Positions 5,193 through 11,553 of a stretch of DNA of 64,000 nucleotides are shown here, one piece after another. The notes under the pieces are model-generated. The model was not told the DNA's origin. It searched no databases and worked only from the letters and a program-made list of their open reading frames with translations. Source of the DNA: Oxynema aestuarii AP17 (lineage in GTDB: Bacteria > Cyanobacteriota > Cyanobacteriia > Cyanobacteriales > Laspinemataceae); NCBI RefSeq assembly GCF_012295525.1, contig NZ_CP051167.1, positions 4,881,501 through 4,945,500 of the forward strand, in the 5' to 3' direction. The stretch's first letter is position 1. Each line of letters begins with the position of its first letter. The translations under genes were made by a program, and so were the position numbers.

Positions 5193-5915
5193 CTAACTCC
5201 GGCGATCGCGGGCAGTTTCCCAGCGCGACCAAAACTCATCTATTAGGCAAAATTGGTAACCGCGATCGCGCAATTGGGGAACCAATGCGGCGACCGTCGC
5301 CACCACGTCGCGACCGCCATAATAGCCGTCGTGCAGCACGATTACCGATCCGTCCGTCACCTGAGCTAAAACCCGCTCGACCACCACACTCACCCCCGGT
5401 TCGCACCAATCTTCGGGAACCACACTCCACATCACCGGACGATAATTCCACTCGCGCAGCCAACGCAAGACCTGCGGCGTAAACACCCCGTTGGGGGGGC
5501 GCACGTCGCGCACTCGCCGTGCGACCTGCTCTAGATCCCATCCGCAAGCGCGGGCGATCGCCGAGCGAGTGCGAGCCAAACTCTCCTGGAGGCGATCGCG
5601 ACCCAAGCTCGGGAACGAGCGGTGTTCGTAGCCGTGCAAGCCCAAACCGTGACCGCCTCTGTCAATGGCCCGCACCCATTGGGGATGACGGCTGACCGAT
5701 CGCCCCAGACAGAAAAAAGTGGCCGGAACCGCTAGGGAGTCGAGCTCTTCGAGCAACGCCGGAGTGTATTCGGGATGGGGACCGTCGTCAAACGTCAGCG
5801 CCACACTCGAAGAGCGATCTGTAGCGGTTCTCTCCGTCGGCGCCGACCACAAACACCCGGGGAAACAGGGTTTGAGGACGCGGTATAAAATAGGGTACAG
5901 GGGCGCGAATTGCAT
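5193..5915 (-). CDS. Polysaccharide deacetylase (NodB family, CE4)
   Basis: A 240-residue carbohydrate esterase 4 domain protein that removes N- or O-acetyl groups from peptidoglycan, chitin-like or exopolysaccharide chains. Visible motifs are VALTFDDGPHPEY (motif 1, catalytic base and metal Asp), LGLHGYEH (motif 2, His metal ligands, with Gly-Tyr in place of Ser/Thr-x-x), RPPNG (motif 3) and VIVLHDG (motif 5, catalytic His). No signal peptide is evident; the N-terminus MQFAPLYPILYRVLKP is only weakly hydrophobic. It is transcribed away from the lipoprotein gene at 5950, and the two 5' ends lie 34 bases apart. Cell-wall or envelope polysaccharide modification is the likely role. Confidence 0.87.
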   Translation of the reverse strand: MQFAPLYPILYRVLKPCFPGCLWSAPTERTATDRSSSVALTFDDGPHPEYTPALLEELDSLAVPATFFCLGRSVSRHPQWVRAIDRGGHGLGLHGYEHRSFPSLGRDRLQESLARTRSAIARACGWDLEQVARRVRDVRPPNGVFTPQVLRWLREWNYRPVMWSVVPEDWCEPGVSVVVERVLAQVTDGSVIVLHDGYYGGRDVVATVAALVPQLRDRGYQFCLIDEFWSRWETARDRRS

Positions 5916-5949
5916 CGAAGGATTTTTAAGATTGATTCAAGAGTTCTGT

Positions 5950-6564
5950 ATGATAACCCGAGCGACCAACAGCCAACAGTCGAACCGTTCGCAAAGCGTC
6001 TTTGAAAGAGCATCTCGAACGAGAGCGGGCGGCGACAGGCTAAGCCAAAGCCGACCTCAAGCCTTCAAACGCTTCACCCAACTGCTCGGCGCGGCGATCG
6101 CCACCACCCTCGTCGGCTGTAACAGTATTATCACCGAACGCTACGACGCCACCGCCACCGTCACCTACACCTGGAAAGTCGAATACACCACCACCCCAGT
6201 CGCCAGTAAAGACCGCCGCATCGAAACCTTTGCCTCCAACACCTTAGTCAATCACAACGGCGAGAAACCTCCCGGCGCCGTCACCGGACCCGACGATCGC
6301 GGCTTGTGGTGGCCCGCCCTCCCGCCGCGACCGACCGTTGACCAAATCGAAGCCGCCGCCGAAGTCAACGAAAAACCGGGAACCCCAGAATTATTAAAAG
6401 ATGTCGAATACCAACTGACCTACCAAATCGGCAACCGTCAAGTCACCAAACCCACAAATTATCAAGTTTATCGGGAAGTCGCGAAAGCCTATCCCGAGGG
6501 TTTACCCGTTAAATTCACCTTGGGGGCCGGAGATCTGAGCGTCGATCGCGCCGAAGCGCAATAA
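5950..6564 (+). CDS. Conserved cyanobacterial lipoprotein, function unknown
   Basis: A 204-residue protein with a basic, Ser/Arg-rich N-terminus, then a hydrophobic stretch (residues ~46-58) ending in TTLVGC, a good lipobox. The mature part would start at the Cys and be membrane-anchored. The rest is Thr- and Tyr-rich (TYTWKVEYTTTPV), with no enzyme motif I recognise. I chose the ATG at 5950. The same frame runs upstream to 5719 but overlaps the deacetylase gene on the other strand. The region before the hydrophobic stretch is long for a lipoprotein signal, so a start closer to the lipobox, such as a non-ATG codon, is possible. Confidence 0.6.
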   Translation: MITRATNSQQSNRSQSVFERASRTRAGGDRLSQSRPQAFKRFTQLLGAAIATTLVGCNSIITERYDATATVTYTWKVEYTTTPVASKDRRIETFASNTLVNHNGEKPPGAVTGPDDRGLWWPALPPRPTVDQIEAAAEVNEKPGTPELLKDVEYQLTYQIGNRQVTKPTNYQVYREVAKAYPEGLPVKFTLGAGDLSVDRAEAQ

Positions 6565-6627: not shown

Positions 6628-8679
6628 TTAGGCGATCGGCGTCGATAAGTCGATTTCTTGTAACTGCTCTCCAGGATTGAATGCCACAGAGGGACGCGAC
6701 TCTCTGAAAGAAGGATCTAAAATCGCCGTCGAAGTCCGCTTGCGTTTTTGTCGTCGCAAGCGCGTGTACTCCACCCGTTTGACCCGGGCGGTGTCGTAAG
6801 CGGCAGTATGTTCGGGAATTTTCTTTAAATATTGCAACGCCCCGGCATAATCTTTCACCTTGGCGCGATTGTAAGCACTTTGAAGCAGTCGATTGCCCTT
6901 AATTTGCTGCTTTTCGCGGTACTCCGCAATTTTTTGACGCACCAGGGCATAAGTGGGAGCCGCTTCCGGAATTTGTTCGAGTAACTGGATCGCCCCTTCA
7001 AAGTCTCTAACTTGAGCGCGTTGGTAAGCTTTTTGAATCAGTTGATGGGCTTCGGCTTTCAGTTTGATGCGTTCTTTCTCGCCATACTCGGCAATTTTAG
7101 CCTGAGCCGTATCGTAAACGGGGGTTCCCGGTGGGATTTGTTGGAGTAGCTTCAAAGCAGCCGCAAAATCCCGTTCGCTGGCGCGATCGTAAGCCTCTTG
7201 CAACCATTGGGGAGTTTGCCCAGCCACGGCGGCGGTCGCCTGGGTGACGAGGGGGGCGCTTTTCTCCTGCCAGAAGATAATTTCGGGAATGGTTTGCGCG
7301 GCGCGGATCGTATCGAGCCATCGTTGTTCTTGAAAGGCTTTTTCGGCGATCGCGTACTGACGAGCCGCATTTTGCCAATCGACTTGCCACTGTTCGAGTT
7401 CGCTTTGGGCGTTGTAGTAAGCGGAACTAAACGTCGGAATCGATTCCGCCAGGGCGATCGCGTCTTCAAAGTCTCCGGCATGGTATTCTTGACGGGCGCG
7501 GGCGAGAACCTCGTTCCCGTCATCGGTGGCGGACAAATGCAGTAAAGCCGTCAAGCCCCCCGTAATCACCAAAGCGTTGAGGGCGATCGCCGCCCAAATA
7601 CTGACGACGAACAACGATGGCATCGGACGATTGCTTTTGAACCCGGAAAAAGCGGGCTTTGGCGTCGAATTCTCCCTTGAGGGTCGCGCCGCATCCTCGC
7701 TAGCGGCTTGTGGGGTCACTTCCGTAGATTCTTCACTGTTACGGTTTAATGGTCTCGACCGTTCGCTCTCGTCACTCTCTTCGATCGCCGTCCCGACCAC
7801 GCTGAGGGTAGGGTTCGCAACTGCATGGGGGAGTTGCAGCGCTTTCAACACTTCCGATGCGGATTGATAGCGCTGTTTGGCGTGATTGCTCACCATTTTG
7901 GCGAGAACCGCGATCGCCTTGGGTTCGATATCCCCACGGACGGCGTGCTGCCACCGCAACTCCCCCCGCGTCGGCTCGATCTCGATTTGACTCGGATGCA
8001 ACCCCGTCAGCGCTTGAATGGCAATCAAACCGAGGGCATAAATATCGCTGTTGGGTTGGGGATGACCCGTGAGTTGTTCCGGCGGTAAATAGCCGAACGT
8101 CCCGAGGGGAACGGTAATCACAAATTGTCCCGGTTTGGTCACCGGGGCGTTTTGAATCCCTCGAATGGCACCGAAATTGAGTAACATCCATTTGCCATCG
8201 GATTGCCGTCGGATCAGGTTTTCCGGGGCGATCGCGCAATGAATCAGACCGCGATCGTGAATGAAATCTAAAACCCCCAAGACATCTTGCAGCATCGTGA
8301 GGCATTCCTCGGGCGCCCAGGTGCCATGTTTTCCCGTGGGTAATTGATTGCTGAGGGTTTCTCCTTCGATATACTCTTGAACTAGAAACAGTTCTTGTTC
8401 GTACTCGAAACAATCGATCAGTTGGGGGATTTGTTCGTGGTGACCGAGTTGTTCTAAGGTTTGGGCTTCGATCGTCAGTAAATGCCGGGTAAAATTCGGG
8501 CAATTGGCGCGTTCGAGCGCTAACGAGAGTTGTTTGACAAAGCACTTGTGCTGACCCAAACTGTGCGTATCTTCGGCGATGTAAGTTTTGCCGAAAGCAT
8601 CCGCGTCGAGCACTTCGATGACTTGATAGCGGTCGGCTAACAAGTTCCCGACGACGGGAATCGACACAAATCTCTGCAT
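6628..8679 (-). CDS. Degenerate Ser/Thr kinase domain protein with TPR-like repeats
   Basis: 683 residues. Residues ~10-270 have a Hanks-type kinase fold with the ATP-site Lys (K49, CFVKQL), the alphaC Glu (E71), GTFGYLPPEQ and SDIYALG. The catalytic loop reads IHCAIAPEN (147-154), so the catalytic Asp of HRD is Ala149. The DFG metal-binding Asp is Asn168 (LLNFG). The glycine loop is also poor (LDADAFGKTY). It is therefore predicted to be a pseudokinase. A Ser/Pro-rich linker, one membrane helix (about 355-380) and three or four repeats of about 60 residues of the form AYxRAxxxDFxGALxLLxQIP follow, probably periplasmic. An ATG with GGAG nine bases upstream sets the start; a GTG five codons earlier overlaps that site. 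Peptide scaffold or sensor roles are inference. Confidence 0.85.
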   Translation of the reverse strand: MQRFVSIPVVGNLLADRYQVIEVLDADAFGKTYIAEDTHSLGQHKCFVKQLSLALERANCPNFTRHLLTIEAQTLEQLGHHEQIPQLIDCFEYEQELFLVQEYIEGETLSNQLPTGKHGTWAPEECLTMLQDVLGVLDFIHDRGLIHCAIAPENLIRRQSDGKWMLLNFGAIRGIQNAPVTKPGQFVITVPLGTFGYLPPEQLTGHPQPNSDIYALGLIAIQALTGLHPSQIEIEPTRGELRWQHAVRGDIEPKAIAVLAKMVSNHAKQRYQSASEVLKALQLPHAVANPTLSVVGTAIEESDESERSRPLNRNSEESTEVTPQAASEDAARPSRENSTPKPAFSGFKSNRPMPSLFVVSIWAAIALNALVITGGLTALLHLSATDDGNEVLARARQEYHAGDFEDAIALAESIPTFSSAYYNAQSELEQWQVDWQNAARQYAIAEKAFQEQRWLDTIRAAQTIPEIIFWQEKSAPLVTQATAAVAGQTPQWLQEAYDRASERDFAAALKLLQQIPPGTPVYDTAQAKIAEYGEKERIKLKAEAHQLIQKAYQRAQVRDFEGAIQLLEQIPEAAPTYALVRQKIAEYREKQQIKGNRLLQSAYNRAKVKDYAGALQYLKKIPEHTAAYDTARVKRVEYTRLRRQKRKRTSTAILDPSFRESRPSVAFNPGEQLQEIDLSTPIA

Positions 8680-9290
8680 AGAATCACTCTCCACCTTGAC
8701 CTCGGCTAGAAATGGCTTGGGCGATCCATTCGGCCCGTCGAAGGCGTCGCTGAGGCTGCAGTCACCTCCGGCGGCGAATGGCGCGAACGAGACCCGAATT
8801 GACCCTAAGATTTGGGCTGCATTGTGGGAGCGATCGCCCGAATGACGCGATCGCCGATGCTTCGTACCACTTCCAGCCCGTCATCGCACTTGTCTGCTGT
8901 TGTCCGATCGGTGACAAAAATTGCCATTATGTCGATCGGTTGACCCCAGCAGCACAAGTCCGAACTACCAACGCAAAGCAACCCAAGGGCTAGGAATCTG
9001 GCCGCTATTAGGAGCAGACTCAGGTCTTCCCTATGAGTTTTCAGCAACCGGATGGGAAGTTCAGGAATAAATGAGGTCCCCGGGTTCGCCCTTACGAGAC
9101 GTGCGGCGCTATTTTGTATCGATGTTTACACTTTTGCGGACATGGCGATGCTCCTGGGGAGATCCTTTCGCGTTCGCCGTCCGGGGGAATCTTTTGAGGG
9201 GTTGTTGCGTTCCCGCTTCGATCTGTCCCGAACGCCACAAATTTTTGTTGAAAAGAGATAAATATTGTTGCGATTTTTGAGGGGAAGCTA
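8680..9290. other. 610-bp spacer, no secure gene
   Basis: It lies between the leftward pseudokinase and a small rightward gene. An 80-codon minus-strand frame (8805-9047, TTG start) encodes a C-terminal stretch that looks protein-like (IFVTDRTTADKCDDGLEV), but it has no ribosome site and unconvincing codon use in its first half, so I do not call it. No RNA gene is recognised. Confidence 0.45.
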
Positions 9291-9762: not shown

Positions 9763-11553
9763 CTAAATTTTACTATTCTGTATAGAATAAATCTCCGTTA
9801 TTTCTTGTCTTCCTCTCAATTGCAACTCGCCTACTTTCCGACCGGGATAGCGATCGCGGACGTAAGCAAAAGTCTCGCGAGTAATTAGCAAACTATAAGG
9901 ATTATTGTCAAGAATTTCTTTATTCATCGGTTCCAAGCGAGCGGCAATATTAACCGTATCGCCCAAAACGGAATAATTCGATCGCCGAGAACCGCCCACA
10001 CTGCCAGCGATGACCGGGCCGGTATGGATGCCGATCCCAAACCGAATCGGCGGCTTTCCCGTGGCTTTAAAATGGCGGTTGAGAACTTGTAATTGTTCGT
10101 GCATTTTAAAACAAGCGGCGATCGCATTCAACGCATCCTGTTGAATTTCCGCTTCCGTCGTGCGGACGAACGGAACGCCAAAACAGGCCATAATCGCATC
10201 GCCAATATATTTATCGATCGCCCCCCCACAATTCATAATACAATTCGACATCACGTCGAGATATTCGTTGAGCCACGGTAACAATTCCCTCGGCGGCATC
10301 TGCTCGGAAATCGTCGTAAATCCGCGAATATCCATAAACAAAATCGTGGCGATCGCTTCTTGAGGGGGAACCGCTCCGTGTTGGAAAATTTCATGGCGCT
10401 GCTGCCAGATCGTGCGGGCCGTTTCCGGGGCAACTTGCGTCTCAAACAAGCGCATCAGTTGCTGTTTTTGGTACTGTTCGCGGACCTGAACGGCGATCGC
10501 GCTCAAGGCGATCGTACCGATGGGAGTCGCCGTGGGTAACCACCAATTCACCCAAGTGAAGGCACCCAAGGCAATTCCCACCCACACCGACGGCAAAAGC
10601 AACAGCAGCCCCACCCGATGTTTCCAATCCAAACCGGACAACAGCCACCCAGTCCCCAGAGCGAACGCGATCGCCGCCCAAGGAGACACCCACGCGGGCC
10701 AACGACGTAAAAACCGATCTTCGAGCCAATTGTCCGCAACGGCGGCATGGATGTAAACCCCCGCGATCGCTTGGAATGGCGAAATTTTGCGGTCTAACCC
10801 CGTCGCCACCGCGCCGACAAATACGAATTTATTGGCAAACGCACTCATCGGGACGCGACCTTCGACCACATCGACAAACGAATAGGTGGGAACCGCTTGC
10901 ATTTTCCCGGGCCAATTAACCCAGAAGTTATACCAAACTCCGGATTGGTAACGGGCGATCGCCCTTTGAGGCAGTTCGGCTAACAGGTCGGACGAGGGCA
11001 AGTCCCCGGACACTTGTAACATTGCCAAACTCAAATTGGGAATCCCTTCAATCCACAGGGTCGCCTGACGGCTGATCCCGTCGCGGTCGGCTTCGTGGAG
11101 AATTTGACCCACGGCGGCGGCAGCGTCTTGCAAGATCGGCAAAGGTTCCTCCCCCCAGGCGCCCCGGGCGAGGACGACGCGACCGTTACGGGCGATCGCC
11201 TCCGCTAAGCGGGCATCTTGAGGACTCGGATCGAGAAAGAGAACATCGAACCCGATCGCCGCCGGATCGGCATCGTTCAACACGTCGAGCAGTTGGACGT
11301 AGCGATCGCGCGACCAGGGAAATTGACCGTAAACCTGCAAACTGGTCTCGTCAATTGCCACGGTCACGATCCGCTCGTTCCAACTGAGCGAACCGCGCAG
11401 TTTAAATAACTGGTTGTAACCAAATCGTTCTAAAGGCTCCCACAGTCCCAACAGGGCAATGGCAGCCGAAACCGCCCCCGCAATGGCACCGGGCCACCAG
11501 GGATAATCCCGTATTAACGTGCGGCGAAGCCAGCCTCGAACTCCCAAAATCAT
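9763..11553 (-). CDS. CHASE2-domain class III adenylate cyclase
   Basis: 596 residues that make cAMP (or less likely cGMP) from the NTP. An N-terminal membrane helix (~21-38) is followed by a periplasmic CHASE2 sensor (~45-285, with AAIGFDVLF and KFVFVGAVATGL), three membrane helices (~290-357) and a cyclase domain. Metal Asps are D408 (LFMDIRGF) and D452 (YIGDAIM). K448 and the Asp of LGDTVN fit adenine specificity, and Asn and Arg of TVNIAARLE are the transition-state residues. All catalytic positions are intact. The FecR-domain gene lies 160-220 bases upstream on the same strand, so the two may form a unit that senses the envelope and signals by cAMP. The ligand of CHASE2 is unknown. Confidence 0.92.
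   Translation of the reverse strand: MILGVRGWLRRTLIRDYPWWPGAIAGAVSAAIALLGLWEPLERFGYNQLFKLRGSLSWNERIVTVAIDETSLQVYGQFPWSRDRYVQLLDVLNDADPAAIGFDVLFLDPSPQDARLAEAIARNGRVVLARGAWGEEPLPILQDAAAAVGQILHEADRDGISRQATLWIEGIPNLSLAMLQVSGDLPSSDLLAELPQRAIARYQSGVWYNFWVNWPGKMQAVPTYSFVDVVEGRVPMSAFANKFVFVGAVATGLDRKISPFQAIAGVYIHAAVADNWLEDRFLRRWPAWVSPWAAIAFALGTGWLLSGLDWKHRVGLLLLLPSVWVGIALGAFTWVNWWLPTATPIGTIALSAIAVQVREQYQKQQLMRLFETQVAPETARTIWQQRHEIFQHGAVPPQEAIATILFMDIRGFTTISEQMPPRELLPWLNEYLDVMSNCIMNCGGAIDKYIGDAIMACFGVPFVRTTEAEIQQDALNAIAACFKMHEQLQVLNRHFKATGKPPIRFGIGIHTGPVIAGSVGGSRRSNYSVLGDTVNIAARLEPMNKEILDNNPYSLLITRETFAYVRDRYPGRKVGELQLRGRQEITEIYSIQNSKI

Follow-up and report, generated by a model that had tools for sequence, protein, structure and literature searches.

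A cyanobacterial membrane pseudokinase with TPR-like repeats, and a HIP1 octamer that probably reached its catalytic codon after the aspartate had gone

The stretch of the Oxynema aestuarii AP17 genome analysed here (64,000 nucleotides; hereafter the window) carries, on the reverse strand at positions 6628-8679, a gene whose product is best read, with a probability of roughly 0.6, as a vertically inherited membrane pseudokinase that transfers no phosphate, has its phosphate site held by an aspartate of its own (Asp27) and works by binding partners. The simplest history suggested by the alignment of its relatives is a single loss of the catalytic Asp in the ancestor of the clade, with a HIP1 octamer landing later on a codon that would no longer have encoded Asp.

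The gene encodes a membrane pseudokinase with TPR-like repeats of 683 amino acids, starting from an ATG at 8679 at a place shared with its orthologues (a Met is found at the equivalent place in the relatives of the same family, f1), and a GTG at 8694 is a possible alternative start. A kinase-like domain, a linker, a transmembrane (TM) helix and the repeats together fill the protein, and the positions given below for its parts are likewise on the reverse strand. The kinase-like domain (residues 13-285; 7825-8643) scores 86 bits against the Pfam profile Pkinase (PF00069; cut-off 31.7), and its predicted fold aligns to the closest solved fold, that of PknB (PDB 1o6y), over 244 residues with a Z of 25.5 and an rmsd of 2.5; by Pkinase profile and bilobal fold, it is a bacterial Hanks-type Ser/Thr kinase fold. 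The single TM helix lies at about residues 356-381 (7537-7614; hydropathy 2.17) and is a helix in the model at low pLDDT, and the TPR-like helical repeats, which are seen in the AlphaFold model and in structure matches, extend over about residues 388-654 (6718-7518). The full-length AlphaFold model has a mean pLDDT of 74.7 and a pTM of 0.43, with the linker and TM stretch (residues 284 to 385) under 50. The C-terminal part modelled alone reaches a mean of 84.3, and 250 of its 330 residues stand at 90 or more in a helical repeat array. The best PDB matches of the repeat region are TPR proteins, at a weak level (E 1.6e-3, TM-score 0.23), and Pfam gives a TPR-protein-21 ARM repeat match (38.9 bits); at E up to 0.001, Pfam assigns the whole protein to kinase families and one repeat domain only. 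Hydropathy, model and repeat array thus support the layout proposed in a sequence-only reading of this DNA, namely a kinase-like domain followed by a membrane helix and an array of TPR-like repeats.

Concerning topology, Lys and Arg are more numerous before the TM helix than after it in 29 of 45 sequences, equal in 9 and fewer in 7, a count in which the chosen TM segment is evidently wrong in some rows (e.g. G012). From this we infer a single-pass membrane protein with a cytosolic kinase-like domain, the repeats probably being on the periplasmic side, because the charge around the TM helix favours such a topology. The protein ends in a conserved tail, NPGEQLQE (6655-6678), of the form NPGxx[LF]QE in all 13 one-piece orthologues of family f1; this tail may serve in sorting or docking. 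A looser form of the tail is seen in 34 of 46 sequences, including homologues of the set f48.

Within the kinase-like domain, the catalytic loop (residues 147-154; 8218-8241) is encoded by CAT TGC GCG ATC GCC CCG GAA AAC and reads HCAIAPEN where the consensus is HRDxKPxN, so that Ala149 occupies the position of the catalytic Asp. The metal site reads LNFGAI, with NFG (residues 168-170; 8170-8178) for DFG, and the glycine-rich loop is also altered (DADAFG), with Asp27 (8599-8601) replacing the second Gly of GxGxxG. Retained are the beta3 lysine, Lys49 (8533-8535; kept in 14/14 family f1 orthologues), and the alphaC glutamate, Glu71 (8467-8469; 13/14), and both places are conserved in at least 90% of 20 aligned rows. 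When a pseudokinase is defined by motif as having lost at least one of the beta3 Lys, the HRD Asp and the DFG Asp, the protein is one, with both Asp residues absent and Lys49 present. The sequence-only reading had already described the two altered motifs, the remaining Lys and Glu and the resulting pseudokinase, and all of these hold in the ORF translation and the alignment. Its suggestion that Cys148 is ancestral is plausible as well, given HCD or YCD in 18 of the 20 intact relatives (HGD in the other two).

The protein is not an isolated case, since an orthologue exists in all 14 genomes of family f1, with one full-model match per genome among the matches listed; that of G000 consists of two joined pieces of one frame and that of G013 is split between two contigs, its C-terminal piece staying outside the tree and the tail count. 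The HRD Asp is absent from all 14 orthologues (Asn in 12, His in one, and Ala in the window protein only), the DFG Asp is kept in nine, and the metal-binding Asn in six, genus g4 having Lys in its place. In a tree from which the catalytic columns had been left out, the 14 family f1 proteins form one clade (support 100/98), in which the window protein is sister to g4 (97/89), and the nearest outside group is made up of the 20 intact sequences. On this tree the HRD state changes three times in all, never inside the family f1 clade. The window protein is only about 50% identical to its nearest orthologue. The tree and the counts leave out L057 (G044, with an in-frame stop in the match); the G058 match was also left out, and G053, in which the match runs across one in-frame TAG, is represented by its 656-aa open frame alone.

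The gene neighbourhood adds to this picture. The window and most g4 genomes have in common, as far as the stretches reach, the order ABC-transporter ATPase, sigma-70 factor, polysaccharide deacetylase (5193-5915, reverse strand), pseudokinase gene, CHASE2-adenylate/guanylate cyclase (9763-11553, reverse strand), FecR-domain protein and HTH_25 protein. The deacetylase is found near the pseudokinase gene in 11 of the 14 family f1 genomes and the cyclase in the window and eight g4 genomes (cut by the end of the stretch in G012), with a cyclase homologue also near the gene in G040. The shared order argues that the family f1 genes are orthologues, beyond mere kinase similarity; for G001, G002 and G008, orthology is deduced from full-length similarity, the tail and the tree. 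The extra kinase-like frame close to the gene in G008 encodes another protein (30% identity to the window protein, in the kinase part only, with HRDIKPSN).

Two further observations concern the surroundings of these genes. Two f11 genomes and G008 have a further kinase homologue no more than a few kb away from the family gene (L075, 3635-5785, reverse strand; L078, 2193-4379, reverse strand; L067, 1322-3328, forward strand), with the motif HRDINPRN in G023. In the window, a convergent ORF (5719-6564, forward strand) with the lipoprotein-like stretch LVGCNS ends 64 bases from the end of the pseudokinase gene, and Pfam matched no family to its part 5968-6561.

The HIP1 octamer GCGATCGC (8228-8235, given without strand) indeed covers codons 149 and 150 and two bases of codon 151, as the sequence-only reading had pointed out, and it occurs at this place in the window only (1 of 46 sequences). 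From its position exactly on the catalytic codons that reading had drawn the idea that HIP1 spread overwrote an intact catalytic loop in the window lineage, thereby creating the pseudokinase. This idea is barely credible in the light of the orthologues, since all 13 others of family f1 lack the Asp with no HIP1 at the site; together with the single clade, these Asp-less, HIP1-free orthologues rule out HIP1 as the cause of the Asp loss. Orthologues of this kind were what the sequence-only reading itself had said would refute its idea. Moreover, the Gly27-to-Asp change occurred in the same clade without any HIP1 there. Intact relatives such as G016 have CAC TGC GAT CTC AAG CCG at codons 147-152, where the sister genus g4 has mostly CAT GGC AAT ATC GCC CCG, codons 149-151 being AAT ATC GCC in six of its eight sequences and AAT ATT GC[TA] in the other two. 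Genus g5 has CA[CT] TGC AAT TTA AAT CC[GC] at the same six codons, G002 has CAT TGC AAT CTG AAG CCA and G001 has CAT ACT CAT TTG CAA CCG. The AAT ATC GCC of the sister genus, set against GCG ATC GCC in the window, indicates that the HRD Asp had gone before HIP1 arrived, and with it the Lys that comes after it in the motif. By parsimony, the HRD Asp was lost before the window lineage split off, residue 151 changed from Lys to Ala before the window protein and g4 parted, and at most HIP1 would have replaced a residue, probably Asn, that already was not Asp.

HIP1 is so strongly over-represented here (198 copies in the window versus 2.9 in shuffles) that a single copy over a given codon carries little weight as evidence. 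The gene itself holds five copies, at codons 149, 255, 364, 407 and 443, all read as Ala-Ile-Ala; when five are placed at random in the gene, codon 149 is covered in 2.4% of trials and the HxDxxPxN motif in 7.3%, while one or more of the listed catalytic motifs are touched in 20.6%. Two observations nevertheless speak for overwriting by HIP1: at codons 255 and 443 of the window gene, HIP1 stands where 13 compared relatives have other residues, and where genomes differ in a HIP1 site, an amino acid is changed more often than at other differing octamers. Specifically, in 13 orthologue pairs between the window and G005, the residues are unchanged under 2 of the 36 HIP1 octamers present in one genome only, versus 3472 of 11088 other differing octamers (Fisher p 4e-4, where overlapping octamers are not independent). 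In 28 groups from 4 genomes of g4, 11 of 18 HIP1 gains and losses change an amino acid, versus 2551 of 9462 other octamer changes (p 0.002) and, for single-base changes only, 6 of 12 versus 1836 of 8112 (p 0.03), both being comparisons of small numbers. As gains make up only 3 of the 18, the pattern is as compatible with selection at the DNA level for keeping HIP1 as with rewriting by spread. The eye-catching octamer on the catalytic codon appears to be a latecomer, and it warns that a change in a protein should not be blamed on HIP1 before relatives have been consulted.

The altered domain is kept in close relatives as strictly as intact kinases. In the Asp-less genus g4, dN/dS of the kinase domain is 0.114 (NG86, 21 pairs, range 0.054-0.161), as compared to 0.122, 0.065 and 0.116 in three groups of the intact f33 (6, 1 and 1 pairs), and that of the linker is 0.63 in g4 and 0.63-0.75 across the same groups; these values describe g4 and the f33 groups, as the distance between the window protein and its relatives precludes an estimate of its own. 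It could be argued from the several catalytic positions that differ among family f1 members that the gene is a functionless relic on its way out, which is very improbable for a gene carried without internal stop by 14/14 genomes, with a kinase-domain dN/dS of about 0.11 in g4, a conserved tail and a conserved gene order.

Across kinase-domain positions 13-285, only Asp149 and Gly27 are fixed in the 20 intact relatives (with a threshold of 19) and changed in all 14 family f1 proteins. The replacement at position 27 is Asp in 14/14 orthologues, where 20/20 intact relatives have Gly, and it is fixed in a loop whose positions 25, 26, 28, 29 and 30 vary in the family. In human VRK3, the G-loop residue D175 is described as occupying the position that a phosphate of ATP would take; the protein retains the K-E pair and does not bind ATP. 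The same source counts 41 of 49 human predicted pseudokinase domains in which the G-loop motif is broken, in many cases through an acidic residue (PMC2639636). By analogy with VRK3, Asp27 would point into the phosphate site and may pair with Lys49, which would keep the site self-occupied and free of nucleotide. In the mechanism proposed, the kinase-like domain would not transfer phosphate and, held in a fixed shape by Asp27, would play a docking or allosteric role in the cytosol. The periplasmic repeats would bind a ligand or a protein, the single TM helix would relay this to the cytosolic pseudokinase, and the locked pseudokinase would recruit or regulate a partner, perhaps one of the many motif-intact kinases of the genome. 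The sequence-only reading had offered an 'ATP-binding or scaffold module'; the scaffold role is likely, and ATP binding is made doubtful by the G-loop Asp in 14/14 orthologues. On the other hand, the DFG Asp is kept in 9/14, so that metal binding need not be lost throughout the family.

The self-occupied site has to be weighed against the possibility that the domain binds ATP without transferring phosphate and serves as an inactive switch that regulates an active kinase partner, in the manner of JAK JH2 or HER3. The Lys49-Glu71 pair is kept, and the Asn-substituted loops of the family resemble those of JAK JH2 and HER3, for which Asn for the catalytic Asp is described together with ATP binding and, in HER3 and JAK2 JH2, weak activity (PMC4718504). 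The window genome could also hold partners, as it contains 50 places that match the window protein, for the most part in the kinase region (the matches were read at 30 of the 50). With an Asp in the G-loop of all 14 proteins, NFG for DFG in the window protein and Lys for the metal-binding Asn in g4, such a nucleotide-binding switch is unlikely.

Still less probable is an unusual kinase that has remained active, in which Asn or another acid, perhaps Asp27, replaces the catalytic Asp and ATP is bound via Lys49. In WNK kinases a lysine has moved into the glycine-rich loop. The fixed Asp27 among varying neighbours and the retention of Lys49 and Glu71 would suit continued activity, as would the weak activity of HER3 and JAK2 JH2 (PMC4718504), and the reports on SpkE of Synechocystis conflict: it is one of five cyanobacterial Ser/Thr kinases (STKs) without the Asp in a 2007 survey (PMC2176072) and was first described as inactive, yet one laboratory later reported activity (PMC11863333). 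The latter report also weighs against the pseudokinase reading preferred here. Against an active kinase stands the catalytic set itself, as the HRD Asp is missing in every member; the DFG Asp is lost in 5/14 and the metal-binding Asn in 8/14, which leaves no catalytic set common to all 14. The reading preferred here remains that of a non-transferring membrane pseudokinase that would work by binding partners.

Several known systems resemble the window protein in part. PknB-type kinases, which carry PASTA domains as their outside part, offer the closest solved fold and the same succession of cytosolic kinase, TM helix and outside part; they differ in that the window protein has repeats in place of PASTA domains and lacks the catalytic Asp. 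EssB/YukC of type VIIb secretion is likewise described as a cytosolic pseudokinase with one TM helix and an all-helical outer domain (PMC9600267). It belongs to a different phylum, and the outer part of the window protein consists of TPR-like repeats; the likeness seen is one of plan. EssB/YukC is absent among the best 60 of 2070 PDB sequences and among the 50 fold matches listed, and no T7SSb or secretion gene is found among the seven neighbouring genes scanned. VRK3 shares the acidic G-loop residue, the K-E pair and the kinase fold, but has another architecture, and its D175 is described as not well conserved (PMC2639636), as opposed to Asp27, fixed in 14/14; by the numbering, the two may also sit at different G-loop positions. 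HER3 and JAK JH2 likewise have Asn for the catalytic Asp and keep the beta3 Lys, but they bind ATP, the first two glycines of the G-loop are retained in JAK JH2 (PMC4718504), and their architecture is unrelated.

Among bacteria, a 2025 review covers seven pseudokinase or pseudokinase-rich families, of which CP1 is the one of cyanobacteria and proteobacteria; its members are STK-like with mixed motif loss, but are described there as having no TM regions and as fused to COG3899 (PMC12599244). Membership of CP1 is ruled out for the window protein by its TM helix and by Pfam matches confined to kinase families and the repeat domain. Bacterial pseudokinases are a known kind, to which the window protein adds a variant, with TM helix and repeats, that is set apart from CP1. 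The five Asp-less STKs of the 2007 survey have lost the same residue, and the available part of that survey does not group them as a family (PMC2176072). Among the papers listed in searches of open-licence literature, none was on the pseudokinase clade of family f1.

Loss of catalytic residues is not limited to this clade. A search of the class at E 1e-20 gave matches in 71 of 291 genomes, and 30 matches were read (that of the window, G026, 14 of f33, 11 of f48 and L126-L128). The last three (in G049, G021 and G098) are frames of 329-335 aa that match the repeats, with no kinase domain detected, and were excluded from the motif counts. All three catalytic residues are present in 14/14 f33 sequences and in six of seven further ones (G053 has Arg at beta3). 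None of the 11 full-length f48 homologues has all three: the beta3 Lys is lost in every one (to Gln, His or Tyr), the HRD Asp in seven and the DFG Asp in seven. The tree requires one change at beta3, three at HRD and five at DFG. A shared origin of the HRD loss in family f1 and the seven HRD-less f48 sequences is rejected (AU p 1e-9), as is a single group of family f1 with all 11 f48 sequences (AU p 0.014), the groups having been named after the tree had been seen. Within one set of homologues, catalytic residues have been lost by different routes, as judged from the tree and alignment.

Other kinase-like genes of the window genome show further arrangements. L002/L005 (G000:C1:2261108-2262889) is a 1089-aa frame with two kinase-like domains (HRNIKPSN and HQDLKPSS), i.e. 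a tandem pseudokinase-kinase, and two-domain frames of 1047-1132 aa also exist in relatives from the family. L007 (G000:C1:5308719-5309609) is a kinase with HRDINPEN and with INFG for DFG.

Bacterial pseudokinases are described in the 2025 review as little studied by experiment (PMC12599244). In the present set, motif-intact, half-decayed and fully decayed members share one plan of kinase domain, TM helix and repeats, so that swaps between members could separate kinase chemistry from the roles of the fold; EssB/YukC indicates that a plan of pseudokinase, TM helix and helical outer domain exists elsewhere (PMC9600267). It may tentatively be proposed, although the odds are somewhat against it, that a cyanobacterial membrane receptor family became pseudokinases at least two times by different routes, and that its main job is non-catalytic even in the motif-intact members. 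If this is true, the family f1 clade would have lost the HRD Asp and fixed a G-loop Asp as a built-in phosphate mimic, and f48 would have lost the beta3 Lys; repeated loss under purifying selection would then mean that the main job of the family is non-catalytic binding and signalling.
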